Virus record (IMG/VR): IMGVR_UViG_3300020477_000164
Location: 1-20,943 of that record
Direction: 5' to 3' (one strand)
DNA from: a virus
DNA: 20,943 nucleotides
Shown piece by piece: positions 12,839 to 20,943 of the stretch. Each line of letters opens with the position of its first letter. Within the stretch, counting starts at the first letter, position 1. The notes under the pieces were generated by a model. It did no database searches. It was not told the DNA's origin and worked only from the letters and a program-made list of their open reading frames with translations. The position numbers were made by a program, and so were the translations under genes.

Positions 12839-13567
12839 TCACTTCAGGAAAGGCACGTAGCCTTCCGGCAACATGTCCTTCCTAACTCGGAATCCCGTCA
12901 TGTCTTTCCTTGCCCTGCCTTTGGCAGTCAATCCGACAATGCGGGGCCGTTCGTCTAGGAACCGAAGGTCGTGTTCGTCACCGTCGATGACTTCGAACGT
13001 GCCGTACGTCTTCGGCAACTCCTCGAACACCACCGCGACGTTGCCGCCGCAATGGAGTACGTCCAAGCACTCGTGCCAATTGTCCTCGCTACGCGAGAAG
13101 GTTAGGTAGTAGTTCTCAGGAAACGCTCCGCTCAAAAAGCAGAGCATCCTGCTGAGGTGCTTGGTGTAGTCAAGGAACTGGGTGTCTTTACACTGCTCGA
13201 ATATGTCAGGAGTTTCCTCCTCCCAAGCAATGTCAGATGTCCCGTTCAGCCGAATAACAGGGGTCATCCCCACGGTTTCAGAATCGTACTGGTGCATGGA
13301 ACACTCTCCTTGCAGCGCGGCTCTGAAGGTGAAGTTGTCCTTGAAGAACCACTCCGTCTTGTAGTCGTGAGCCGCTCGCACGTTCTTGTGGAGGAAATGC
13401 CCGCTGTTCCTGAAGCAGGAACTGGCACACCCTTCGCTCTCTTTACCACAGGTGTTCCCGAAGCCGGACGAGTCGGCAGGCGAGAGGTGCATGATCTTCA
13501 TGCTGTATCCCGTCTGCTTCCTGTTCGTCTTCAAGACCTTCGTGTTGCCTTTAGACAACAGATCCAT
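12839..13567 (-). CDS. Gp88-like phage protein
   Basis: 242 residues. 'LSKGNTKVLKT', 'HLSPADSSGFGNTC' with C40-x6-C47-x3-C51, 'VIRLNGTSDIAWEE', 'FLDYTKHLSRM', 'YYLTFSRSEDNWHE', 'GGNVAVVFEELPKTY' and 'VIDGDEHDLRFLD...IVGLTAKG' reproduce, in order, the conserved blocks of the gene-product-88 family. The three cysteines may bind a metal. Biochemical function is unknown. SD CGAAAGGAGAG precedes the ATG. It is the last gene of the leftward operon. Its leader carries a simple hairpin rather than a ribozyme. Confidence 0.8.
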   Translation of the reverse strand: MDLLSKGNTKVLKTNRKQTGYSMKIMHLSPADSSGFGNTCGKESEGCASSCFRNSGHFLHKNVRAAHDYKTEWFFKDNFTFRAALQGECSMHQYDSETVGMTPVIRLNGTSDIAWEEETPDIFEQCKDTQFLDYTKHLSRMLCFLSGAFPENYYLTFSRSEDNWHECLDVLHCGGNVAVVFEELPKTYGTFEVIDGDEHDLRFLDERPRIVGLTAKGRARKDMTGFRVRKDMLPEGYVPFLK

Positions 13568-13600
13568 AGTTCTCTCCTTTCGTTGAGGTAGTGACAGAGT

Positions 13601-13631
13601 GGACCGGTGCGGGTGTCCCCAACACCGGCCC
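13601..13631 (-). other. Leader hairpin before the gp88-like gene
   Basis: GGGCCGGTG pairs with CACCGGTCC (9 bp, one G.T wobble that pairs only on the minus strand) around a small inner GGG/CCC stem. It occupies the slot where other leftward genes have a ribozyme but lacks the L3 loop and catalytic strand. It may instead protect mRNA ends. Confidence 0.45.
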
Positions 13632-13636
13632 CAAGG

Positions 13637-14293
13637 TTAGATGGTTTCAGTTACGTTTGTGAATTCTTCGACTTCGTTGATGACGCTCCCGACCACGGGG
13701 ATGGTGATGCTGGGACGCCGCAGCGTCTCCTTGCTATCCGTCTCCGCGATCATGCAGGAAAGCTCAACCGCTTCTGAAGTCTCGACAGACCACACGCCCT
13801 TGTTTGTGAAGGTCGTGAAGTGAGCCGGTCCAGCCCAAGGGCTGTAGTGGACGGAGTACGTCCCCGGCTCTGAGTCTGAGAGACCCATCGCTCCGGTTTG
13901 TCTCCAAATCCCCGAGGCTCCGAGAGATGAACTTTCGTCCACCTTCGCACGAGCAGACATGAGGTCCATTGGCCTGAAGATTTCGATCTTGCAGTAGGTT
14001 TCGACGGCATCAATGTTCCCACTCGCGGACGAGTGAGGAAGGTGCCATTGTCCACCTATTGCGATCACATCCCCAAGCACGCGAGCGTGGACGTTCTTAC
14101 GCCCCTCGTCTTGCGCCCTCTCTCTGCCAGCCTCGCTGACTTGGAATGAAGATTGACCCATCCAGACATGCTGGGCGTGGGCAATCACCTTTCCGTAGTG
14201 GTAGTCGGGGAGTCCCTGCGTGGTGAGGTCCTCGTTCCGAATCGAAAACAGCCGCTTGTGGCTGTTCCAATAAACTCCACATCGTAATCCCAT
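13637..14293 (-). CDS. Conserved phage hypothetical protein ('VYWNSHK...NVHA')
   Basis: 218 residues. The N-terminal pattern V-Y-W-N-S-H-K-R-L-F-S-I, 'GKVIAHAQHVWM', 'FQVSEAGRER' and 'KNVHARVLGDVI' is one I associate with conserved unannotated phage proteins. The C-terminal two thirds are beta-rich with no known motif. SD is CGAAAGGAAG, 6 nt before ATG. The preceding intergenic region holds a tRNA-like minihelix and two hairpins instead of a clear ribozyme. Confidence 0.6.
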   Translation of the reverse strand: MGLRCGVYWNSHKRLFSIRNEDLTTQGLPDYHYGKVIAHAQHVWMGQSSFQVSEAGRERAQDEGRKNVHARVLGDVIAIGGQWHLPHSSASGNIDAVETYCKIEIFRPMDLMSARAKVDESSSLGASGIWRQTGAMGLSDSEPGTYSVHYSPWAGPAHFTTFTNKGVWSVETSEAVELSCMIAETDSKETLRRPSITIPVVGSVINEVEEFTNVTETI

Positions 14294-14354
14294 AACATCT
14301 TCCTTTCGTGTGCCTGAAAGGCTCAGGCGGGCCGTGACCCGTAGTGGGCCAGAG

Positions 14355-14387
14355 AGGTGGACGGGGGAATCGAACCCCCGCCCACCT
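14355..14387 (-). ncRNA. tRNA-like minihelix (acceptor plus T-arm hairpin)
   Basis: On the minus strand, a 13-bp stem (one G.T wobble) caps in the loop TTCGATT. The inner five pairs GGGGG/CCCCC with this 7-nt loop are a textbook T-arm, and the outer pairs GGTGGGC/GTCCACC mimic a 7-bp acceptor stem. D and anticodon arms are absent, and no complete tRNA can be built around it. It sits 5 nt after the stop of the gene ending at 14393. It may be a tRNA mimic that attracts tRNA-processing enzymes, or a tRNA-derived remnant. Confidence 0.55.
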
Positions 14388-14392
14388 ACTTC

Positions 14393-14782
14393 TCAGTTCA
14401 AAGAGACAGGAATGTTATCGAGAGTCCTCACGGACTCGGGTTCATCCATGGCCTTGGTGACGGAGTCCACGTCTAGTAGAACGCCAACCCTGTCAAGGAA
14501 TTTTCCCACCGTGACATCGACCTTTCCGCCGCTTAGTTCACTCAATTCGGAAGTGCGCCATCGGATGACCTTGCAGACTTGGACGAACAACTCGGCAACA
14601 GCCTCGTAGTCGTCTTCTGCGACGGGAGGCTTCCCGCCGGTTCGTTCCTCTGCCCGCTTCTGAAAACCAGCAATGCTGGACGGTTGGTAGGCGATGGTCC
14701 TGATGAGTGCGCCGAACAATTGCACGGCACGATCCCAGCAGATAACGCAGTCTGCCCCTTCGAGATGTTCTTCGTAGGACAT
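14393..14782 (-). CDS. Hypothetical protein
   Basis: 129 residues, helical, with 'GADCVICWDRAVQLF' near the N-terminus and a central 'DDYEAVAELFVQVCKVIRW'. No family recognised. The start is the ATG after CGAAAGGAGAGACT; the longer frame from 14863 would run through that SD and a structured RNA, so it is rejected. Confidence 0.6.
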   Translation of the reverse strand: MSYEEHLEGADCVICWDRAVQLFGALIRTIAYQPSSIAGFQKRAEERTGGKPPVAEDDYEAVAELFVQVCKVIRWRTSELSELSGGKVDVTVGKFLDRVGVLLDVDSVTKAMDEPESVRTLDNIPVSLN

Positions 14783-14814
14783 AGTCTCTCCTTTCGTAAG
14801 AGTGAGAAGTGTGA

Positions 14815-14916
14815 TGAGACAACAGGATGGGAAGCCATAACCATCGACGGGGTTGAAATCCATAGGTGGACCCCGCCCCCTTCACTGTAGGAGGCTTTGA
14901 CTGGGCTGTTGTCTCA
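14815..14916 (-). ncRNA. Branched 5' leader RNA closed by an 11-bp stem
   Basis: TGAGACAACAG and CTGTTGTCTCA pair perfectly over 11 bp. Inside are three more stems: GCCTCC/GGGGGC (6 bp, one T.G wobble that pairs only on the minus strand), CGGGGT/ACCCCG holding an inner TCCA/TGGA, and GATGG/CCATC. This gives a four-way junction of 102 nt, 33 nt before the start codon. It lacks the HDV-like L3 and J4/2 signatures, so it is a different structure in the same position. Riboswitch, unknown ribozyme or stabilising cap are all possible. Confidence 0.55.
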
Positions 14917-14956
14917 AGTGGACGCCGCAGCCTGTCGGCATACGACGCCCCTTCGC

Positions 14957-15355
14957 CTAGTGACTGGAACCCAACGGGTCAATGTTTGTGAAACCCGCTG
15001 GGGCGGTAGCATGTAGCTCCACTCTGGTCCCCTGACAGGGCTGGACAATCTGGGGTTCAGCCGCCTCGACGGCCACAGCCGCTTCGGTAGAGGCTTTCCG
15101 TTCTTCAACCTTCTCGTTGTAGAACTTGAACCGTATCTTGCCAAGCCGCATGAGGCACTGAGCTTGTAGCTTCAGGCCCGCCCGCTTGGCGTAAGAGTAC
15201 AGGACGCCACGCATCGAGACAACTTTACAATCAAAGTCTGTCCCGAGGGTGATTTCCCAGATGTTCCCATCCCCCCATTGGTTCCATGGATACTTGGAGT
15301 TTCCATGGTCTCCCTTGGGTGTCCCGTCAAAGAACTCCAGCACTTTCTTCGCCAT
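14957..15355 (-). CDS. Hypothetical protein, paralogue of the adjacent upstream gene product
   Basis: 132 residues. Residues 21-80 ('KYPWNQWGDGNIWEI', 'GTDFDC', 'LYSYAKRAG', 'GKIRFKFY') align without large gaps to residues 19-76 of the product of the gene at 15440-15718. An Ala/Glu-rich C-terminal extension of about 50 residues is unique to this copy. The conserved Y-P-W-x-x-W-x-D-G-x-x-W-E and G-x-D-F-x-C blocks resemble short proteins of other phages and plasmids. Function unknown. ATG follows AAAGGAGAACTACT. Confidence 0.65.
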   Translation of the reverse strand: MAKKVLEFFDGTPKGDHGNSKYPWNQWGDGNIWEITLGTDFDCKVVSMRGVLYSYAKRAGLKLQAQCLMRLGKIRFKFYNEKVEERKASTEAAVAVEAAEPQIVQPCQGTRVELHATAPAGFTNIDPLGSSH

Positions 15356-15407
15356 AGTAGTTCTCCTTTCATAGAGAGTAGTGAAGTGAGGCGAAAGATT
15401 GGACAGA

Positions 15408-15429
15408 GGGGGCCTCTCGGCACCCCCCC
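15408..15429 (-). other. G/C hairpin in intergenic leader
   Basis: GGGGG and CCCCC enclose a ~10-nt loop. It lies between stop and SD of the two paralogous genes. It resembles the post-stop hairpins of the ribozyme cassettes, but I see no ribozyme after it. Confidence 0.4.
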
Positions 15430-15439
15430 GCCCCAAGAC

Positions 15440-15718
15440 TCACGTGTCGTCGGGAAAGTCTTCGTCCTCATCGAGGCCGTCGACATCCACAAAGCGAAAA
15501 CGTATGACACCTTCGTCTGGCAAGGTCATACTTGTGACCTTCATAGCCAACGTCTTGGCAATGGAGTACAGGCCGTTGCGGAATGAGTTGAGCGTACACT
15601 CGAAGTCTTCGCCCTTCTCAACTTCCCACGTCCTGCCATCCGTCCACTCTGCCCAAGGGTATTGGTGAGTGCGGCCTCGGTTGGTTACCAGTAGGCTGTC
15701 ATCAACTCGTCTTGCCAT
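15440..15718 (-). CDS. Hypothetical protein, paralogue of the downstream gene product
   Basis: 92 residues. 'HQYPWAEWTDGRTWEVEKGEDFEC' (split over 18-41), 'LYSIAKTLAMK' and 'GVIRFRFV' match the 132-residue product of the next gene, so the two arose by tandem duplication. It ends in an acidic tail 'DEDEDFPDD', which the paralogue lacks. AAAGGAGGGACAAC precedes the ATG and lies within the previous gene, so the two are translationally coupled. Confidence 0.65.
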   Translation of the reverse strand: MARRVDDSLLVTNRGRTHQYPWAEWTDGRTWEVEKGEDFECTLNSFRNGLYSIAKTLAMKVTSMTLPDEGVIRFRFVDVDGLDEDEDFPDDT

Positions 15719-15899
15719 GTTGTCCCTCCTTTCTTAGTCGGAGCAATTCGATTACGTCATATTCGTATATCACAATCGCTTCCTGTTCAGTGAGTCCACG
15801 GGAGGCGTACCTTTCCTTGTACCCCTCCCAGTTCCAACCACGATAGAGCATGAACTCCTCGTGGTCCTGTAGAGCTTTGACTCCTTCAAAGCTATCCAC
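15702..15899 (-). CDS. Small hypothetical protein
   Basis: 65 residues beginning at GTG, chosen because GAAAGGAGATGAT precedes it; the longer frame to 15962 would read through the ribozyme. 'FMLYRGWNWEGYKERYASRG' followed by a helical 'IVIYEYDVIELLRLR' is seen; no family recognised. Its stop lies 17 nt inside the next gene, giving a coupled pair downstream of one ribozyme. Confidence 0.55.
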   Translation of the reverse strand: MDSFEGVKALQDHEEFMLYRGWNWEGYKERYASRGLTEQEAIVIYEYDVIELLRLRKEGQHGKTS

Positions 15900-15915
15900 A
15901 TCATCTCCTTTCAAT

Positions 15916-15925
15916 CGTGACCGTA
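15916..15925. repeat. CGTGACCGTA motif, copy 2
   Basis: Exact copy, here between the ribozyme's 3' end and the SD of the 65-residue gene. It explains the longer spacing (38 nt) at this junction. Confidence 0.5.
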
Positions 15926-15937
15926 GCTGATGTGACT

Positions 15938-15990
15938 GGGACATTGGTTGGCTATCCAGCATCGCCTCGTGGCGGCTGTCCCGTGATGCC
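15938..15990 (-). ncRNA. HDV-like self-cleaving ribozyme 1 (before the 65-residue gene)
   Basis: 53 nt on the minus strand. P1 GGCATC/GATGCT (6 bp, G1.U wobble), J1/2 AC, P2 GGGACA/TGTCCC, P3 GCC/GGC with L3 GCCACGA, P1.1 GG facing the L3 CC, and a minimal P4-less strand ending C-AA before P2. Cleavage is predicted 5' of the G at 15990, one nucleotide after the hairpin at 15992-16007. Confidence 0.88.
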
Positions 15991-15991
15991 T

Positions 15992-16007
15992 GCCCCCTTG
16001 CGGGGGC
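15992..16007 (-). other. Post-stop hairpin abutting ribozyme 1
   Basis: A 6-bp stem GCCCCC/GGGGGC with a GCAA (GNRA) tetraloop, 9 nt after the DUF932 stop codon and 1 nt before the predicted cleavage site. No T-run follows, so it is better seen as a 3'-end stabiliser of the cleaved mRNA than as a terminator. Confidence 0.7.
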
Positions 16008-16016
16008 GTGAAGTGG

Positions 16017-17099
16017 TTACGCAGCAAGGGCTACCCTGCGCCATTCGCTGGGGTTGAGGTCGATCACACGTCCACCGAACTGTTCAAGCTCAGTGGCACG
16101 ATCGTAAGACTGACAATCCTCAGCGGAGCGGGTGACGGCGTTAGCCATACCCCACTGACTGAGGTCGCCACCAGTGATGAGGTTCTTCAGCACGTTGTCG
16201 GTTTCGTCCTCGGACAATCCGAAACGACGCTGAACAACCTCAATCGCCTTCTGGGGTTTCCCCTCGATGTGGCGGTCGGTAGTCTCACGAAGCTGGTGAA
16301 GCCTATCCGCCCAGCAACGCTGGTCGAGAATAGCCTCTACTGCGTCCCTGATCTTTGCCCAAAAGGCTGCGTCGTCGAGCTTTCGGGTCGAGTCCTTGTA
16401 GAACTCCTGAGCAGCATCGACCGCGCCGATGCCCGTACTACGTCCAAGATGGGTCTTGCGAACCGCTGTCGCCTGAACCATCCCGTTCGTGCAGACGAGC
16501 CGATAAAGGAACTCGTCAATCCTCAGTGATCCCTGTCCGACCTCGCTGTTGGACACAACGATCCCGCCTTGGACCACGTCACCAACCTTGACCTCGCCTT
16601 GCAACCTCGGGCATACAGCCTTGAGGTAGAGACGGCTCTCAGTCAGTTCACATGATCTCATTTCGAGTTCGCTGTCCTCGAACGTGGGCATTATCGCGCC
16701 CATCAGTTCGTAGTTGTCCAGAGGACGGTAGCGATCAGAGAGGAACGCACGAACCGTGTCGGTTCGGGTGTCGGTTCGGACAAGACGCTTCTTCCCGCCA
16801 CCATCATTCCACCAATGGTTGATGTTAGTGGCGAGAAGACTCGGACATTCCGTCCGCATCCTGTCGTAGTACGCCTTTGGAATCTTCGCAGCGGCAGCGA
16901 TCTGCCCGTGGGCGAGATCAGTTGCCTTGTGATACGGCAGGTCCTCAGAAATATCGAAGACCACGTCGTTATCCTCACCGCCAGTGAAGGCGGACTGCTC
17001 AGCTTCCATTGCTCTGGTGTTGACCACAAAGTCCTTCCCGCTGTTTCTCAACGCTTGGACCTCAAGGGCAATGTCAGAGATATTACGTCCCAACTTCAT
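16017..17099 (-). CDS. DUF932 phage/plasmid-like protein
   Basis: 360 residues, the usual family length. 'VRAFLSDRYRPLDNYELM', 'SRLYLKAVCPRL', 'GDVVQGGIVVSNSEVGQGSLRIDEFLYRLVCTNGM' (in pieces) are hallmark blocks of DUF932/LGT_TIGR03299 proteins, which occur in phages and plasmids. Biochemical function is unknown; a role in DNA metabolism is often suggested. The ATG follows CGAAAGGAGAGAACT. Ribozyme 2 lies upstream, but with 78 nt to the start and extra hairpins (CCAGC-AATC-GCTGG and a G-run stem) in between, unlike the other leaders. Confidence 0.85.
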   Translation of the reverse strand: MKLGRNISDIALEVQALRNSGKDFVVNTRAMEAEQSAFTGGEDNDVVFDISEDLPYHKATDLAHGQIAAAAKIPKAYYDRMRTECPSLLATNINHWWNDGGGKKRLVRTDTRTDTVRAFLSDRYRPLDNYELMGAIMPTFEDSELEMRSCELTESRLYLKAVCPRLQGEVKVGDVVQGGIVVSNSEVGQGSLRIDEFLYRLVCTNGMVQATAVRKTHLGRSTGIGAVDAAQEFYKDSTRKLDDAAFWAKIRDAVEAILDQRCWADRLHQLRETTDRHIEGKPQKAIEVVQRRFGLSEDETDNVLKNLITGGDLSQWGMANAVTRSAEDCQSYDRATELEQFGGRVIDLNPSEWRRVALAA

Positions 17100-17177
17100 A
17101 GTTCTCTCCTTTCGAGAGTGGTGGGGGAGATAACCTGCCCCCCCGACAGGATCCAGCGATTGCTGGCATGTATTGTT

Positions 17178-17242
17178 GAGAGCCTCGGTAGGTCAGCGTG
17201 ACCGTAACAGCACCGCCGCGAGAAGGCGGCTCTCGTGGTGCC
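17178..17242 (-). ncRNA. HDV-like self-cleaving ribozyme 2 (before the DUF932 gene)
   Basis: 65 nt. P1 GGCACC/GGTGCT with G1.U, J1/2 AC, P2 GAGAGCC/GGCTCTC (7 bp), P3 GCC/GGC with L3 TTCTCGC (close to the UCCUCGC of HDV itself), and J4/2 C-GA. The P4 region contains a GGT/ACC stem and one CGTGACCGTA copy. Cleavage is predicted 5' of the G at 17242. No stable hairpin directly abuts this site, unlike the others. Confidence 0.88.
17197..17206. repeat. CGTGACCGTA motif, copy 3
   Basis: Exact copy inside the P4 region of ribozyme 2. Confidence 0.5.
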
Positions 17243-17736
17243 ATGGAGTGAGTGGTGATCGACGCCCGATCTGTAGATAACCCACGGCGGTGTATACACT
17301 CTGCGGCCAACTATACGCCAGCACACACAGACCACCGCTGCTAGCAGGGAGTCTACCGAGAGACGTAAGTCCAGAGGACTTGAGGGACTAGCAGGGACCT
17401 ATCGCAAAAGGCTATGCGGTAGCTGAACCAGTGAGTAAGATCGTGTGTCATCCGTGGTCACCTAGGCTCACACGGCGAGGGAAACGTCTACTGCACTGCC
17501 AGCCCTATCCGAAAGACTTGCTGGAGTGAGGTATGTCGAGTGTCGAAGACAATAGTCTTATGGTCTCTCAATCGGGCGGCGATCACCGCCCACTCATCCT
17601 TTTGTTGTGTTGAGATCGGAGCGGGGGGGGCAACTAGCAGGCAGGATCGCATAAACCCGCTGCTGCCCCCCTCACTCGTCTCTCGTCTCTACCTTATGTA
17701 TCGACACATTGGGCAGAGAACTTAACGTGTTTCTTC
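17243..17736. other. 494-nt gene-free stretch rich in stems
   Basis: No credible ORF or SD on either strand. Stems include GGCGGTG/CACCGCT (17286, 17333), AAGTCC-AGA-GGACTT (~17368), CTATCGC/GCGGTAG (17399, 17416), CGTGTG/CACACG (17442, 17469), CACT-CCAGC/GCTGG-AGTG (17494-17528), AAGAC-AATA-GTCTT (17546), GGGCGG-CGATCA-CCGCCC (17574) and GGGGGGCA/TGCCCCCC (17625, 17664). Three wobble pairs fit only plus-strand RNA, but this is weak. The 10-mer CTAGCAGGGA occurs at 17341 and 17388, and CTAGCAGG again at 17634. It lies between a stop codon and ribozyme 2, so as leftward RNA it would be released as a long 3' UTR. A large structured non-coding RNA is possible; I cannot match it to a known class. 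Confidence 0.45.
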
Positions 17737-17955
17737 TCAGTTTGAAACTTTTTCTTGGGTCGGCTCGAAGTCAAAGTAGAACCGTGGTTGGTGTTGGAAC
17801 TCAAGGGAGCCGATGACTCCATCGGATTTCCTCTTGACGACAACGAAGGGGGCAGCGAACTGCCGAACCTCGAAGTCCTCTTGTAGTTCCTTCGTGTCCC
17901 AAACACGGCCACGACTTGTGAGTCCTTCAAGCTGTTCCCTAGTCAAGTCTTGCAT
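17737..17955 (-). CDS. Small hypothetical protein
   Basis: 72 residues, mixed alpha/beta, charged ('GRVWDTKELQEDFEVRQF', 'FVVVKRKSDGVIGSLEF'). The middle looks like a short beta-sheet domain of the type found in small phage proteins; no family recognised. Chosen over the overlapping 78-codon frame because CAGAGGAGACTCAG precedes this ATG. Ribozyme 3 ends 31 nt before the start. Confidence 0.6.
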   Translation of the reverse strand: MQDLTREQLEGLTSRGRVWDTKELQEDFEVRQFAAPFVVVKRKSDGVIGSLEFQHQPRFYFDFEPTQEKVSN

Positions 17956-17986
17956 CTGAGTCTCCTCTGTAAAGGGAAGTGAAACG

Positions 17987-18039
17987 GAAGCATCGGTTGG
18001 TTATCCAGCACCGCCACGTGGAGGCTGCTTCGTGGTGCC
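17987..18039 (-). ncRNA. HDV-like self-cleaving ribozyme 3
   Basis: 53 nt. P1 GGCACC/GGTGCT with G1.U, J1/2 AC, P2 GAAGCA/TGCTTC, P3 GCC/GGC with L3 TCCACGT, P1.1 GG, then a short P4-less strand ending C-GA. Same length and layout as ribozyme 1 with compensated changes in both P1 and P2. Cleavage is predicted 5' of the G at 18039, two nt after the hairpin at 18042-18055. Confidence 0.9.
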
Positions 18040-18041
18040 GT

Positions 18042-18055
18042 GGGCATCCTTGCCC
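18042..18055 (-). other. Post-stop hairpin abutting ribozyme 3
   Basis: GGGCA-AGGA-TGCCC, 6 nt after the upstream stop. It is identical in sequence to the hairpin at 18448-18461, although the ribozymes beside them differ. Confidence 0.7.
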
Positions 18056-18061
18056 GTCATG

Positions 18062-18340
18062 CTATTCCGCAGGGACCTTGTTGATTAGGAATGGCTTGCT
18101 GCCCGTTTTCGGGTAGCGAAGCGATCCGTCAATACCATCGACGGTCGTGTCCTCAGACACAATCCACCAAGCCTGAGTCTCCTTGGCCTTCAAGGCTTTG
18201 CCTCTGATCTTTTTGATCTCGGCCTTGGCCTCGTCTACCGTCGACCCCATGCCGTAGTAGTTTTGAACAAGGATCAGCACCTTGGTGAAGTTGTGTCTCA
18301 TGGACTGGATCGCGTCGGTGCGTGTGTCCAGTGTGGTCAT
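18062..18340 (-). CDS. Hypothetical protein
   Basis: 92 residues: helical N-terminus ('QSMRHNFTKVLILVQNYYGM'), Lys-rich centre ('EAKAEIKKIRGKALKAKE') and a C-terminal beta part ('GSLRYPKTGSKPFLI'). No family recognised. The ATG follows AAGGAGAGAGCT; the longer frame to 18475 would read through the ribozyme and is rejected. Confidence 0.6.
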   Translation of the reverse strand: MTTLDTRTDAIQSMRHNFTKVLILVQNYYGMGSTVDEAKAEIKKIRGKALKAKETQAWWIVSEDTTVDGIDGSLRYPKTGSKPFLINKVPAE

Positions 18341-18365
18341 AGCTCTCTCCTTCTGGGGTAGTGGT

Positions 18366-18445
18366 GGCAATTGGTTCTCGGCTCTCGGGCCGTCCAGCGT
18401 CGCCATTCGTGACCGTAGTCCCGATGGGGGCTTGCCTCTGACGCC
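18366..18445 (-). ncRNA. HDV-like ribozyme 4, with expanded L3
   Basis: 80 nt. P1 GGCGTC/GACGCT with G1.U, J1/2 AGA, P2 GGCAA/TTGCC, P1.1 GG, P4 with CGGC/GCCG, and J4/2 C-AA are all present. P3 GCC/GGC encloses 24 nt instead of 7; the extra part folds as CCC-ATC-GGG plus GAC-TACG-GTC and contains a CGTGACCGTA copy, leaving TCACGA as the apparent L3. Cleavage is predicted 5' of the G at 18445. Activity is less certain because of the insertion. Confidence 0.75.
18408..18417. repeat. CGTGACCGTA motif, copy 4
   Basis: Exact copy within the expanded L3 of ribozyme 4, where it supplies the TCACGA loop bases. Confidence 0.5.
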
Positions 18446-18447
18446 TT

Positions 18448-18461
18448 GGGCATCCTTGCCC
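18448..18461 (-). other. Post-stop hairpin abutting ribozyme 4
   Basis: GGGCA-AGGA-TGCCC, 6-7 nt after the SWIM-protein stop and 2 nt before the predicted cleavage site. Confidence 0.7.
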
Positions 18462-18467
18462 CAATGC

Positions 18468-18653
18468 TTACGCACTGGCCATCCATGCAGTCAAGTGCTT
18501 ACAACACTTCGCTCCCTTCTTGAAGGTCCGATACCTCTGTGAGAAGCACGAGCAATCGAGTTGCCCGTTCGCTTTCACAGTGATGTCGTAATGCTTCTTC
18601 CCGCTGGAAGATTTCATCGTACCTATCACGGGTCGCTTCTTGCGTTTCTGCAT
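18468..18653 (-). CDS. Small SWIM-type zinc finger protein
   Basis: 61 residues. 'LDCSCFSQRYRTFKKGAKCCKHLTAW' (split) gives C34-x-C36-x14-C51-x-H53, the SWIM zinc-binding pattern C-x-C-xn-C-x-H, after a short beta segment 'HYDITVKANGQ'. SWIM motifs bind DNA or protein. The N-terminus is strongly basic, favouring nucleic acid. ATG follows GAAAGAGGAGACAGTC. It is 33 nt after the 92-residue gene with no ribozyme between, so the two share one message. Confidence 0.7.
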   Translation of the reverse strand: MQKRKKRPVIGTMKSSSGKKHYDITVKANGQLDCSCFSQRYRTFKKGAKCCKHLTAWMASA

Positions 18654-18686
18654 GACTGTCTCCTCTTTCGTGGTGAAACAAACTAC

Positions 18687-18965
18687 TCAGCGATCTTCGT
18701 TGACGATGTACGTCACCAGCGCGACGTAGGCATTGGTGTGGATGGTGGGTTCCTCATCGAAGATACCCATGATCCCGTTGTGTTTCTTTTCGATACGCTC
18801 CACCTCCTCAAGGGAGCCGGTGAAGTATTCGCTAAGACACGCCCTAGCCTTCTTGTCTGCGTCGTTGACGTGGCCGTTGAACACGCTGAAGAACGGGTCG
18901 AGTTGCTCTCGTTCCGGTTCAGCTTCGTCACCCACGTAGGGCTTAGATCGTTTTACTGTAGTCAT
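18687..18965 (-). CDS. Hypothetical protein
   Basis: 92 residues, acidic and helical ('ADKKARACLSEYFTGSLEEVERIEKKHNG', in part) with a terminal 'YVALVTYIVNEDR'. No family recognised. ATG follows CGAAAGGACGAGACT. Ribozyme 5 ends 28 nt upstream. Co-transcribed with the SWIM gene. Confidence 0.55.
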   Translation of the reverse strand: MTTVKRSKPYVGDEAEPEREQLDPFFSVFNGHVNDADKKARACLSEYFTGSLEEVERIEKKHNGIMGIFDEEPTIHTNAYVALVTYIVNEDR

Positions 18966-18993
18966 AGTCTCGTCCTTTCGTAGAAGAAGTGAT

Positions 18994-19056
18994 GAGCATC
19001 GGTTCTCGGCTCACAGGCCGTCCAACACCGCCACGGGGAGGCTGCTCTCTGGTGTC
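18994..19056 (-). ncRNA. HDV-like self-cleaving ribozyme 5
   Basis: 63 nt. P1 GACACC/GGTGTT with G1.U, J1/2 AGA, P2 GAGCA/TGCTC, P3 GCC/GGC with L3 TCCCCGT, P1.1 GG opposite the L3 C pair, P4 CGGC-CTGTGA-GCCG, J4/2 C-GA. Cleavage is predicted 5' of the G at 19056. A longer P4 distinguishes it from ribozymes 1 and 3. Confidence 0.88.
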
Positions 19057-19059
19057 GTC

Positions 19060-19089
19060 CCTACCTCATGTATCGACACATGAGGCAGG
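19060..19089 (-). other. Post-stop hairpin abutting ribozyme 5
   Basis: A 12-bp stem (CCTGCCTCATGT with ACATGAGGTAGG) around GTCGAT; its single imperfect pair is a G.T wobble only on the minus strand. A weaker relative (AATGT-GTCGAT-ACAT core) lies at about 17695-17712, after the stop of the 72-residue gene. Confidence 0.7.
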
Positions 19090-19099
19090 GTTCTTGAGA

Positions 19100-19465
19100 C
19101 TATTCGTCGAATTCAAGTAGGTTCTCGCCGTGGTCGTTCACCACTTCGATGCCATGCCATTGGAGCTTCTTCATGGCGAGTCGGTTCACAGTTGCGAAGT
19201 CTTCGTTACATTCTTCAATGTATTCCTCCTCGCAGATGTGACCATGGCTCCACGAGTGTTCATGACGCAGGGTGCGTCTATGCAGTTCACTCGCAAACAT
19301 GGTCCCGAAATGCTCGTCACAGAACTCAATGATCTTAAGGTCACCATTAGTACCACCCTCATGCGTTAGCTTAGTGCTAAGCAGGGGCTTCCTTGGTTCA
19401 CCACACCATCCTGCTACTCGAACAGGATCAGCGGCGGTAACCCATCTCTTGATAACGTCAAACAT
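19100..19465 (-). CDS. Hypothetical protein
   Basis: 121 residues with clustered His, Glu and Cys ('HRRTLRHEHSWSHGHICEEE', 'YIEECNEDF'), possibly metal-binding. No family recognised. The start ATG follows AAGAGGAGACAGAGAT; the longer frame to 19558 crosses the ribozyme. Ribozyme 6 ends 28 nt upstream. Confidence 0.6.
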   Translation of the reverse strand: MFDVIKRWVTAADPVRVAGWCGEPRKPLLSTKLTHEGGTNGDLKIIEFCDEHFGTMFASELHRRTLRHEHSWSHGHICEEEYIEECNEDFATVNRLAMKKLQWHGIEVVNDHGENLLEFDE

Positions 19466-19493
19466 ATCTCTGTCTCCTCTTGGGGAAGTGAAT

Positions 19494-19559
19494 GACCCTC
19501 TCAGCTTAGGCCGTATGGCCGAACAGTGGACACCACGTGAAGGCGGGGTCTTGTCCACC
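19494..19559 (-). ncRNA. HDV-like self-cleaving ribozyme 6 (CPEB3-like L3)
   Basis: 66 nt. P1 GGTGGAC/GTCCACT (7 bp, G1.U), J1/2 AA, P2 GACCC/GGGTC, P3 GCC/GGT with L3 TTCACGT (the same seven bases as the L3 of the human CPEB3 ribozyme), P4 GCC-ATAC-GGC, J4/2 C-TAAG. Cleavage is predicted 5' of the G at 19559. Confidence 0.92.
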
Positions 19560-19562
19560 TGA

Positions 19563-19590
19563 GGCAGGCGTGACCGTAGTCAAGCCCGCC
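19563..19590 (-). other. Post-stop hairpin abutting ribozyme 6
   Basis: GGCGGGC/GCCTGCC (7 bp, one G.T wobble on the minus strand) with an inner TGAC-TACG-GTCA stem. It starts 5 nt after the upstream stop and ends 3 nt before the predicted cleavage site. The inner stem includes a CGTGACCGTA copy. Confidence 0.65.
19569..19578. repeat. CGTGACCGTA motif, copy 5
   Basis: Exact copy inside the hairpin before ribozyme 6. Confidence 0.5.
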
Positions 19591-19595
19591 CCTTC

Positions 19596-19937
19596 TCATT
19601 TCCTGTTCTCAATTAGAGAATTCTCCAAACCGGCATCAGCGTAGATGCATTCGACGTAGGCGAGTTGGTTGATCTGAGCTTGCGTCAACTGACGTCTCTC
19701 CATCGAGTCGAAGTTGGTCAGTTCACCCTCATTGATGGCACAGGTAATACTGGCCGAGAAGGTCACTGGTCTGCTTCGGGGATAGTAATCCCTATCCACG
19801 TGGATTCCGTCGTCTCCGTGTTCGATCTCCCAACCACCCCACTTCAAGACTCCGTTAGCCACTGGTGTGACTGGTCCGAATCTGTGCCATCGCTTGCTGG
19901 CTTGGGCCGCAAGTTGCATCTCTTTGAGTGTGGTCAT
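19596..19937 (-). CDS. Hypothetical protein
   Basis: 113 residues: 'TTLKEMQLAAQASKRWHRFG' at the N-terminus, then a beta-rich middle ('VLKWGGWEIEHGDDGIHVDRDYY', in part) and a helical end. No family recognised. The ATG 19937 follows GAGAGGACATACC; the upstream in-frame ATG at 19952 lies before that SD and is not used here. Ribozyme 7 ends 29 nt upstream. Confidence 0.6.
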   Translation of the reverse strand: MTTLKEMQLAAQASKRWHRFGPVTPVANGVLKWGGWEIEHGDDGIHVDRDYYPRSRPVTFSASITCAINEGELTNFDSMERRQLTQAQINQLAYVECIYADAGLENSLIENRK

Positions 19938-19966
19938 GGTATGTCCTCTCATTAGGGGAAGTGAAT

Positions 19967-20032
19967 CGAACCGCTCAGCTTAGCCCGAAGGCGTACAGCA
20001 GCCACCACGTGAAGGCGGGTTCGTTGGCTGCC
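19967..20032 (-). ncRNA. HDV-like self-cleaving ribozyme 7 (CPEB3-like L3)
   Basis: 66 nt. P1 GGCAGCC/GGCTGCT (7 bp, G1.U), J1/2 AA, P2 CGAACC/GGTTCG, P3 GCC/GGT with L3 TTCACGT, J1/4 GT, P4 GCC-TTCG-GGC, J4/2 C-TAAG. Every helix differs in sequence from ribozyme 6 yet still pairs. Cleavage is predicted 5' of the G at 20032, one nt after the hairpin at 20034-20049. Confidence 0.92.
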
Positions 20033-20033
20033 T

Positions 20034-20049
20034 GCCCCCTCTCGGGGGC
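20034..20049 (-). other. Post-stop hairpin abutting ribozyme 7
   Basis: GCCCCC/GGGGGC with a GAGA (GNRA) tetraloop, 5 nt after the upstream stop. Same stem as at 15992-16007 with another GNRA loop. Confidence 0.7.
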
Positions 20050-20054
20050 GTTAG

Positions 20055-20375
20055 TCACGCAACAACTCTGACAACTGGGTCGAGACTGTTGCACGAGATG
20101 ATAAGAAACTTGGAGCGAGTCGTGACTGTAGCTTGGCTTCGCTTGTTGCGTCGCCTGTTACGTTTCTTCTTGGCCTTGGCCTTGGGAGTGGGCGTCGCTG
20201 CCTTGGGCTTGGGAGTAGTCGTCTCCGGCTTGGCCGGAGTTTTCTTCCGTCGCTTGACAGTCGTGACGGGTTCATGATGTGAAGGCCTCACGGCCTCCTC
20301 GAACCACTGGTCCATCTCCGCATCGGTCGGTCCATTGGAAATGCCAAAGACTCGGTTGATCAAGTTGGAAATCAT
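20055..20375 (-). CDS. Lys/Pro-rich basic-tail protein (first gene of the leftward operon)
   Basis: 106 residues. A folded acidic N-terminal part (~1-35, 'GPTDAEMDQWFEEAV') is followed by a low-complexity tail of Lys, Arg, Pro, Thr and Ala ('TPKPKAATPTPKAKAKKKR'), like histone-H1-type tails, ending in a more hydrophobic segment. Nucleic-acid binding is likely: DNA compaction or RNA chaperoning are both possible. ATG follows AACAGGAGAACGAGATT. As the most upstream gene it is probably made first. Confidence 0.65.
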   Translation of the reverse strand: MISNLINRVFGISNGPTDAEMDQWFEEAVRPSHHEPVTTVKRRKKTPAKPETTTPKPKAATPTPKAKAKKKRNRRRNKRSQATVTTRSKFLIISCNSLDPVVRVVA

Positions 20376-20404
20376 AATCTCGTTCTCCTGTTGAAGATGT
20401 GAAA

Positions 20405-20482
20405 AGGCAGTTAGCTTAGCCCGTCATAGTTGTCACTCGGGGCGAACAGTAGCACCATACGTGAAGGTCTGCCCGTGCTACC
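20405..20482 (-). ncRNA. HDV-like self-cleaving ribozyme 8 (first in the array)
   Basis: 78 nt. P1 GGTAGC/GCTACT with G1.U (a seventh A-T pair is possible), P2 GGCAG/CTGCC, P3 ACC/GGT (a compensated change from GCC/GGY) around TTCACGT plus AT, J1/4 GT, a long P4 closed by CCC/GGG, J4/2 C-TAAG. Cleavage is predicted 5' of the G at 20482, 29 nt before which (downstream side) the first gene's start follows the ribozyme end. Confidence 0.88.
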
Positions 20483-20485
20483 GGA

Positions 20486-20530
20486 CCAGCGGTTTGGTAC
20501 AATGCAAGAAAGCAGGCACCGCGCCGCTGG
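20486..20530 (-). other. Stem upstream of ribozyme 8
   Basis: CCAGCGG (20486-20492) and CCGCTGG (20524-20530) pair perfectly, 3 nt before the predicted cleavage site. It would be the 3' end of any leader RNA removed from the operon transcript. On the plus strand a TACAAT at 20498 resembles a -10 box but has no matching -35. Confidence 0.45.
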
Positions 20531-20552
20531 CCTCACTTCAAAAGGTGAGACG

Positions 20553-20645
20553 ATGAGAAGCCCGCGCCCCGACCAGTTGCCGTTGCCATTGCGGTCCTCA
20601 TCGCCTCATAGAGATGAGACACGACCAGCGGTTACTATCCCGTAG
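20553..20645 (+). CDS. Possible 30-residue peptide
   Basis: ATG preceded by AAAGGTGAGACG, almost the same leader as that of the Sak4-like gene. The 30 residues are rich in Pro, Arg and Ser and match nothing I know. Could be a leader peptide of a divergent rightward unit, or chance. Confidence 0.2.
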   Translation: MRSPRPDQLPLPLRSSSPHRDETRPAVTIP

Positions 20646-20728
20646 GCTCTACTGCCCAGTCATACGCATCGGCATCATGCCATGACTCTGGTCGCTGCGA
20701 CTGCCCGTCCGTTTGGATCACTGTCCAT

Positions 20729-20784
20729 TGTGGTAGCGTCATCCCCCAGCCAGTTGCTGGTATTTAGTTAGGGGGCTTTCCACA
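20729..20784. repeat. Stem element, copy 1 (TGTGGTAGCG...GGGGGCTTTCCACA)
   Basis: TGTGG pairs with CCACA; inside, CCCCC pairs with GGGGG around a further CAGC/GCTG stem. Shares TGTGGTAGCG-W-CATCCC and GGGGGCTTTCCAC with the second copy 20 nt downstream. Confidence 0.5.
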
Positions 20785-20802
20785 GGATCGTAGAGCAGCC
20801 GG

Positions 20803-20838
20803 TGTGGTAGCGACATCCCGTCTTGGGGGCTTTCCACC
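20803..20838. repeat. Stem element, copy 2
   Basis: Same conserved ends as copy 1 with a much shorter apical part (CCC/GGG). The constant ends and variable apex suggest an RNA or protein-binding element. Confidence 0.5.
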
Positions 20839-20943
20839 GCTTAGCGATCCGTCGCTACAGTAGTTATCGGCAGACCATGGGCTGACCATTAGATAATTCG
20901 AGGATGATTAGAAAATAAATCAGATGGATGGGGGGGGGCTGGG

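Follow-up and report, generated by a model that had tools for sequence, protein, structure and literature searches.

Why would a phage place a small, self-folding RNA ahead of nearly every gene in an operon? The question is raised by a phage record of 20,943 bases (IMGVR_UViG_3300020477_000164; its full length is referred to as the window), which carries genes for an internal virion protein, a Sak4-like protein, an exonuclease and a Holliday junction resolvase. From ~20.4 kilobases (kb) downwards on its minus strand, the genes of one putative operon are interspersed with eight elements resembling the ribozyme of hepatitis delta virus (HDV). A sequence-only reading had proposed these eight minus-strand elements as serial HDV-like ribozymes between protein genes; we recovered all eight where it had placed them, seven with a structural descriptor and the eighth once an expanded L3 loop was allowed. 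Descriptor counts, covariation and the reappearance of such arrays in unrelated phages give strong support to their identity as serial HDV-like ribozymes placed between protein genes, and they are very probably active.

Eight HDV-like elements in one operon

From the first gene of the operon downwards, the predicted elements are as follows (nt, nucleotides).

20405..20482, minus strand: E8, HDV-like ribozyme ahead of the operon's first gene (descriptor)
20405..20482, minus strand: parts of E8, namely P1 GGUAGC/GCUACU, P2 GGCAG/CUGCC, L3 UUCACGUAU and a P4 of the kink-turn type
19967..20032, minus strand: E7, HDV-like ribozyme (descriptor)
19494..19559, minus strand: E6, HDV-like ribozyme (descriptor)
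18994..19056, minus strand: E5, HDV-like ribozyme (descriptor)
18366..18445, minus strand: E4, HDV-like ribozyme with a 24-nt L3 holding an inserted hairpin (descriptor with expanded L3)
17987..18039, minus strand: E3, HDV-like ribozyme of the short-P4 class (descriptor)
17178..17242, minus strand: E2, HDV-like ribozyme that would define the 3' end of an upstream non-coding RNA (descriptor)
15938..15990, minus strand: E1, HDV-like ribozyme of the short-P4 class (descriptor)

A strict descriptor, which fixed the HDV order P1-P2-P3-L3-P3'-P1'-(P4 region)-C-N-R-A-P2', found five elements on the minus strand of the window and none on the plus strand, a result that is merely suggestive alone because shuffled sequence gives 0.6 matches per strand. 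Relaxing the descriptor to permit 0-2 nt between CNRA and P2', while making the P1.1 G-C pair obligatory, yielded seven elements in the window, and 400 dinucleotide shuffles gave 0.14 per strand. Swapping the catalytic C of this relaxed descriptor for A, G or T left 0, 1 and 0 matches, respectively, as against seven with C. When the L3 motif, taken partly from these same elements, and the G1.U wobble were also required, seven elements were found on the minus strand and none on the plus strand, compared with 0.011 per strand in shuffles. E4 was recovered, in the window and in locus L001, once a 24-nt L3 was allowed; the related phage contig L233 has an expanded-L3 element of the same kind (1498-1578), with an unrelated hairpin sequence in its L3.

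The nested double-pseudoknot order P1, P2, P3, P1', P2' claimed by the sequence-only reading occurs in a near-zero number of shuffles and is borne out by covariation in relatives. Among 24 gapless elements of the short-P4 class, 12 of 18 pairs have changed on both sides, including five of six P1 pairs and six of seven P2 pairs, and sliding the partner strand by 1-3 positions lowers pairing from 96% to 29-46%. Because these 24 rows had been picked by a descriptor that demands pairing, we retested pairing on matches to the core only (P3-L3-P3' plus GGA, with P1 and P2 left unconstrained). All six P1 pairs were present in 33 of 45 such matches, several others were off by one base, and coding-like matches failed; C-N-R-A was present in every core-only match with full P1 and P2.

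The positions expected to matter for catalysis behave differently from the helices. G1 lies opposite U in all 45 array elements, though the descriptor also permitted C, which upholds the wobble described for the eight window elements. The dinucleotide CC or UC in L3 covaries with GG or GU after P1', a relationship the sequence-only reading had overlooked: the second P1.1 pair is CC/GG in 53 elements and UC/GU in 26, accounting for 79 of 79, with the J position unconstrained by the descriptor. In the element of a cultured phage, A-HIS1, the other P1.1 pair is U-A in place of C-G. The catalytic C proposed before P2' is likewise present, but its assignment needed revision: in E6, E7 and E8 the C that opens the CUGA/CUAA closest to P2' is the best candidate, in preference to the one ahead of UAAG, and in E6 and E7 two nucleotides separate the tetranucleotide from P2', so that the motif does not directly abut that strand.

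This pattern bears on the possibility that the HDV-like folds are plain structural leaders or protein-binding sites, in which cleavage is incidental or absent. Such a reading gains from the fact that the evidence in this analysis comes from sequence only. However, the catalytic C, the G1.U wobble, P1.1 and C-N-R-A are fixed while the helices change freely, and a plain leader needs neither a catalytic core nor a hairpin stopping at the cleavage site; we regard it as highly improbable. In many elements the P4 arm is kink-turn-like (GAG N GACA N' C, three free bases, GAC). Such P4 arms occur at 20422-20440 (minus strand) of the window and in the relatives L002, L004, L102 and L233, and may be protein-binding or docking sites.

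Arrays in related and unrelated phages

Searching with the DUF932 protein encoded in the operon returned four viral contigs, of which one represents the phage of the window itself, and DNA patterns added two further members of the group. The related phages carry arrays of eight elements (L002), five (L003, a partial contig), ten (L004), five plus an expanded one (L233) and five (L102, where a sixth match at 1246 was set aside as lying within a gene). These elements are intergenic and all lie in the sense orientation to the genes, with none on the antisense strands. No relatives were found in bacterial genomes, and BLAST against phage records gave none at 1e-5. The large viral collection was scanned by exact DNA patterns only, and matches to those patterns are mostly chance. 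Gene calls came from a simple picker, and the contigs are fragments.

Arrays of the same kind recur outside this group. An unrelated phage contig of 107 kb (G001) holds five elements within 2 kb, plus one unconvincing match elsewhere, and repeats the order of ribozyme, ribosome binding site and start codon, with an upstream hairpin at three of the five. Contigs G002 and G003 have two to three elements each, and many other contigs have one. The cultured Acaryochloris phage A-HIS1 (FN436268; L216 10260-10400, minus strand) has a single element, in the gap before p090 at ~50.36 kb, with a hairpin ahead of the predicted cut. The Rfam RNA RAGATH-16 lies ~1.1 kb upstream of the five-ribozyme array of G001 (L224 16944-17014, minus strand).

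A general tie between arrays and the DUF932 gene was considered and rejected. The distant relatives L008-L013 (~40% identity) gave one weak, probably chance match (L010), and the same check found no array elements in Faecalibacterium phage Roos or in a faecal contig. The arrays therefore belong to the phage group and not to DUF932.

Gene number and order vary among the relatives, and the cassette of hairpin and ribozyme stays between genes. This arrangement would also be expected if the cassette acted at the level of DNA, aiding gene shuffling through repeated homology, with RNA cleavage secondary. We consider there to be only a faint chance of this, as cassette sequences differ while their pairing is kept, which is explained by selection on RNA and not by recombination between shared DNA.

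Hairpins, leaders and predicted cleavage products

A stable hairpin usually ends just before the predicted cut, a feature absent from the sequence-only reading. Those found in the window are listed below.

20489..20527, minus strand: hairpin 6 nt ahead of the E8 cut, -15.3 kcal/mol
20034..20049, minus strand: hairpin GCCCCC-GAGA-GGGGGC, 1 nt ahead of the E7 cut
19561..19592, minus strand: hairpin with a UACG loop, -21.4 kcal/mol, 1 nt ahead of the E6 cut
19059..19090, minus strand: hairpin, -23.0 kcal/mol, 2 nt ahead of the E5 cut
18448..18461, minus strand: hairpin GGGCA-AGGA-UGCCC, 2 nt ahead of the E4 cut (from sequence)
18042..18055, minus strand: hairpin, -6.8 kcal/mol, 2 nt ahead of the E3 cut
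15992..16007, minus strand: hairpin GCCCCC-GCAA-GGGGGC, 1 nt ahead of the E1 cut

Hairpins of -10 kcal/mol or lower lie within 0-6 nt of the predicted cut in 34 of 45 array elements, whereas dinucleotide shuffles of the corresponding 60-nt stretches have them in 17% of cases. With the cutoff set at -13 kcal/mol, the figures become 31 of 45 and 6%. We rejected the hairpins as intrinsic terminators: no terminator-like site was found on the minus strand of 15400-20943, and merely 0-6 nt separate hairpin and cut. Also rejected was the repeated CTACGGTCACG as a promoter, given that it lies inside the end hairpin with the UACG loop (19561-19592) and inside the L3 hairpin of E4 (18366-18445). The E8 hairpin region (20489-20527, minus strand), CATTGTACCAA, is conserved directly upstream of the first ribozyme in L002, L004, L233 and L102 and might be an operator or part of a leader.

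On the other side of the ribozyme, the start codon follows 23-37 nt beyond it in most cases (median 29 nt). Intergenic gaps in the ribozyme region of the window are barely longer than a hairpin, a ribozyme and a ribosome binding site. A pyrimidine-rich, TTCACTTCCCC-like stretch separates the ribozyme 3' end from the Shine-Dalgarno sequence in several minus-strand leaders of the window.

The operon genes around these leaders are as follows.

20055..20375, minus strand: gene 1 of the operon, 106 amino acids, no assigned function
19596..19937, minus strand: gene 2, 113 amino acids, no assigned function
19100..19465, minus strand: gene 3, 121 amino acids, no assigned function
18687..18965, minus strand: gene 4, 92 amino acids, no assigned function
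18468..18653, minus strand: gene 5, 61 amino acids, the sole gene in the ribozyme region to lack a ribozyme of its own
18062..18340, minus strand: gene 6, 92 amino acids, no assigned function
17737..17955, minus strand: gene 7, 72 amino acids, no assigned function
16017..17099, minus strand: gene 8, 360 amino acids, DUF932 family (PF06067)
15702..15899, minus strand: gene 9, 65 amino acids, GTG start; the genes after it have no ribozymes

The Shine-Dalgarno sequence of the DUF932 gene lies inside a hairpin, CTCTC-GAAA-GGAGAG (17100-17120, minus strand), that is identical in four phages. Beyond the operon start in L002 are genes, including that for the large terminase subunit, transcribed away from the operon.

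HDV-type cleavage produces a 2',3'-cyclic phosphate on the upstream fragment and a 5'-hydroxyl (5'-OH) on the downstream one. A 5'-monophosphate is required by RNase J and by RNase E acting in its 5'-sensing mode, and stable 3' hairpins impede 3'-5' exonucleases. We propose that each ribozyme would fold while the polycistronic RNA is being made and cut directly 5' of G1. The upstream RNA would then end in a 2',3'-cyclic phosphate, usually 1-6 nt behind a stable hairpin that should hinder 3'-5' exonucleases, and the downstream messenger RNA (mRNA) would begin with a 5'-OH G buried in P1, a poor substrate for 5'-sensing RNase E, RNase J and RppH. With the Shine-Dalgarno sequence and start codon ~29 nt behind the ribozyme, each cut would leave both new ends protected, and all genes would share the same type of leader. 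An operon RNA that dices itself in this way would be consistent with all our observations, and we infer that cleavage, end protection and an effect on expression take place in vivo. It is likely that the ribozymes serve as mRNA-making, insulating leaders.

An RtcB-type ligase might instead close the gene-sized pieces into circular mRNAs; their 5'-OH and 2',3'-cyclic phosphate ends have the right chemistry for RtcB. RNA ligase genes are, in addition, enriched in phages with theta ribozymes, an HDV-like group discussed below (Kienbeck et al. 2024, PMC10879173). Circular products of another ribozyme cluster, of hammerheads, were however sought and not found (Perreault et al., PMC3088659). No RtcB match was present in 17 ribozyme-bearing phage records, which leaves a host RtcB as a possible source, and the end hairpins fit linear mRNAs; we consider circularization very unlikely.

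Self-cleaving RNAs in 5' leaders can also down-regulate genes, as glmS does, and the variable P4 arms, kink-turn-like in many elements, could bind a factor, so cleavage might lower or time expression in response to a ligand, protein or temperature rather than stabilize mRNAs. Yet no conserved ligand-like domain is common to all elements, and regulation of this kind would need neither a ribozyme per gene nor a hairpin 3' of the upstream gene, making it an unlikely explanation.

E2 is exceptional: it lacks an end hairpin, and what lies directly ahead of it is not a gene but a structured RNA:

17246..17598, minus strand: conserved structured non-coding RNA of ~350 nt, with a closing helix that stops 3 nt ahead of the E2 cut

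This region folds 6.3 standard deviations better than shuffles (z-score -6.3), has no Rfam match, and is conserved with some compensatory changes in L002 and L004, the latter of which has kept the RNA and lost E2. In L003 this position is occupied by another RNA, whose closing helix is similar. From this arrangement, the 3' end of the ~350-nt RNA is apparently set by E2. The RNA carries a repeated CCTGCTAG motif. A separate sequence, CGGGTTTATGCGAT followed by CCT, is common to a window hairpin (17640-17700, minus strand) and to L224 14677-14690 (minus strand), where it lies in a structured element immediately ahead of one of the ribozymes of G001, the unrelated phage.

The intergenic placement originally described therefore holds with two amendments: E2 trails a non-coding RNA, and the first gene too has a ribozyme. 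A ribozyme stands ahead of the operon's first gene not only in the window but also in L002, L004, L233 and L102, and the cuts would therefore do more than separate neighbours. Probably they serve to equip each gene with a standard leader that insulates it and with a stable mRNA of its own.

Several observations weigh against a self-dicing operon of HDV-like ribozymes. Gene 5 (18468-18653) and the final genes of the cluster (12839-15718) lack ribozymes, the end hairpin is absent at some elements (17242; L004 8120; L224 14640), and we infer from gene layout that the operon is one transcription unit. Of the two kinds of scan suggested in the sequence-only reading, the custom descriptor separated the strands by seven to none, but Rfam models gave no match in the window at gathering score and no useful match at permissive thresholds. 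The CPEB3 model reached 21.2 bits against the 35 needed, with an offset of ~10 nt; Rfam models cannot hold pseudoknots.

Known ribozyme systems and the place of the arrays

In helix order, P1.1, the G1.U at the cleavage site, a 7-nt L3 with G at position 6, and C-N-R-A in J4/2 before P2', the window elements resemble the HDV, CPEB3 and minimal drz-Mtgn ribozymes. Unlike these, they stand in series between phage protein genes and have several P4 types, one of them kink-turn-like, as well as a hairpin in the L3 of E4. Another group for comparison is the theta ribozymes, which are also HDV-like, occur in tailed phages and lie mostly beside transfer RNAs (tRNAs) (Kienbeck et al. 2024, PMC10879173). 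That study left unexplained 526 matches without a tRNA link, mostly in non-coding regions, and its main text does not contain the words tandem, cluster, upstream or operon. We rejected a theta reading: its criterion is cleavage within 5 nt of a tRNA 3' end, no tRNA was found in the window or in the related loci L001-L004, L102 and L233, and the cleavage sites here come after hairpins behind protein genes.

The principle of dicing has precedent in another ribozyme class. Clustered hammerheads flank individual prophage genes, dicing into gene-length mRNAs was proposed for them, and a triple cluster cleaves in E. coli (Perreault et al. 2011, PMC3088659). The suggestion that tandem series of this kind had never been described for protein genes was thus too broad. 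The present arrays share with those clusters the flanking of single genes by several self-cleaving ribozymes, but they are of the HDV class (no Rfam hammerhead match was found in the window, where HDV topology fits instead), longer (8-10) and associated with nearly every gene including the first, and they come with end hairpins and with start codons at a fixed distance. HDV-class arrays of 8-10, nearly one per gene including the first, appear new in the open-access literature, subscription journals and preprints being outside our search; the same applies, within the literature searched, to the cut-site hairpin, the constant spacing and the recurrence in unrelated phages.

In synthetic insulators of the RiboJ type, a self-cleaving ribozyme directly 5' of the ribosome binding site strips the upstream leader. 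The arrays have the same placement just 5' of the ribosome binding site, but are natural, of the HDV class and one per gene. Structures, covariation, orientation, spacing and end hairpins were computed here, and from them a broader proposal can be drawn, to which we give even chances: that several unrelated lineages of tailed phages have a self-processing operon that places every gene in a cassette comprising a 3'-end hairpin, an HDV-like ribozyme and a ribosome binding site. A single transcript would thereby give rise to mRNAs the size of one gene, shielded at their 5' and 3' ends, with no need of host RNases, and one ribozyme would in addition mature a new structured phage RNA of ~350 nt.

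Little is known of what small self-cleaving ribozymes do for bacteria and phages. In the present arrays, where the elements lie, which way they face, how they are spaced and which hairpins flank them all point, across unrelated phages, to separate, end-protected mRNAs, which, if true, would be a natural counterpart of the ribozyme insulators of synthetic biology. For this set of ribozymes, the RNA ends to be expected during infection are clearly predicted, and the cultured phage A-HIS1 carries one such element.

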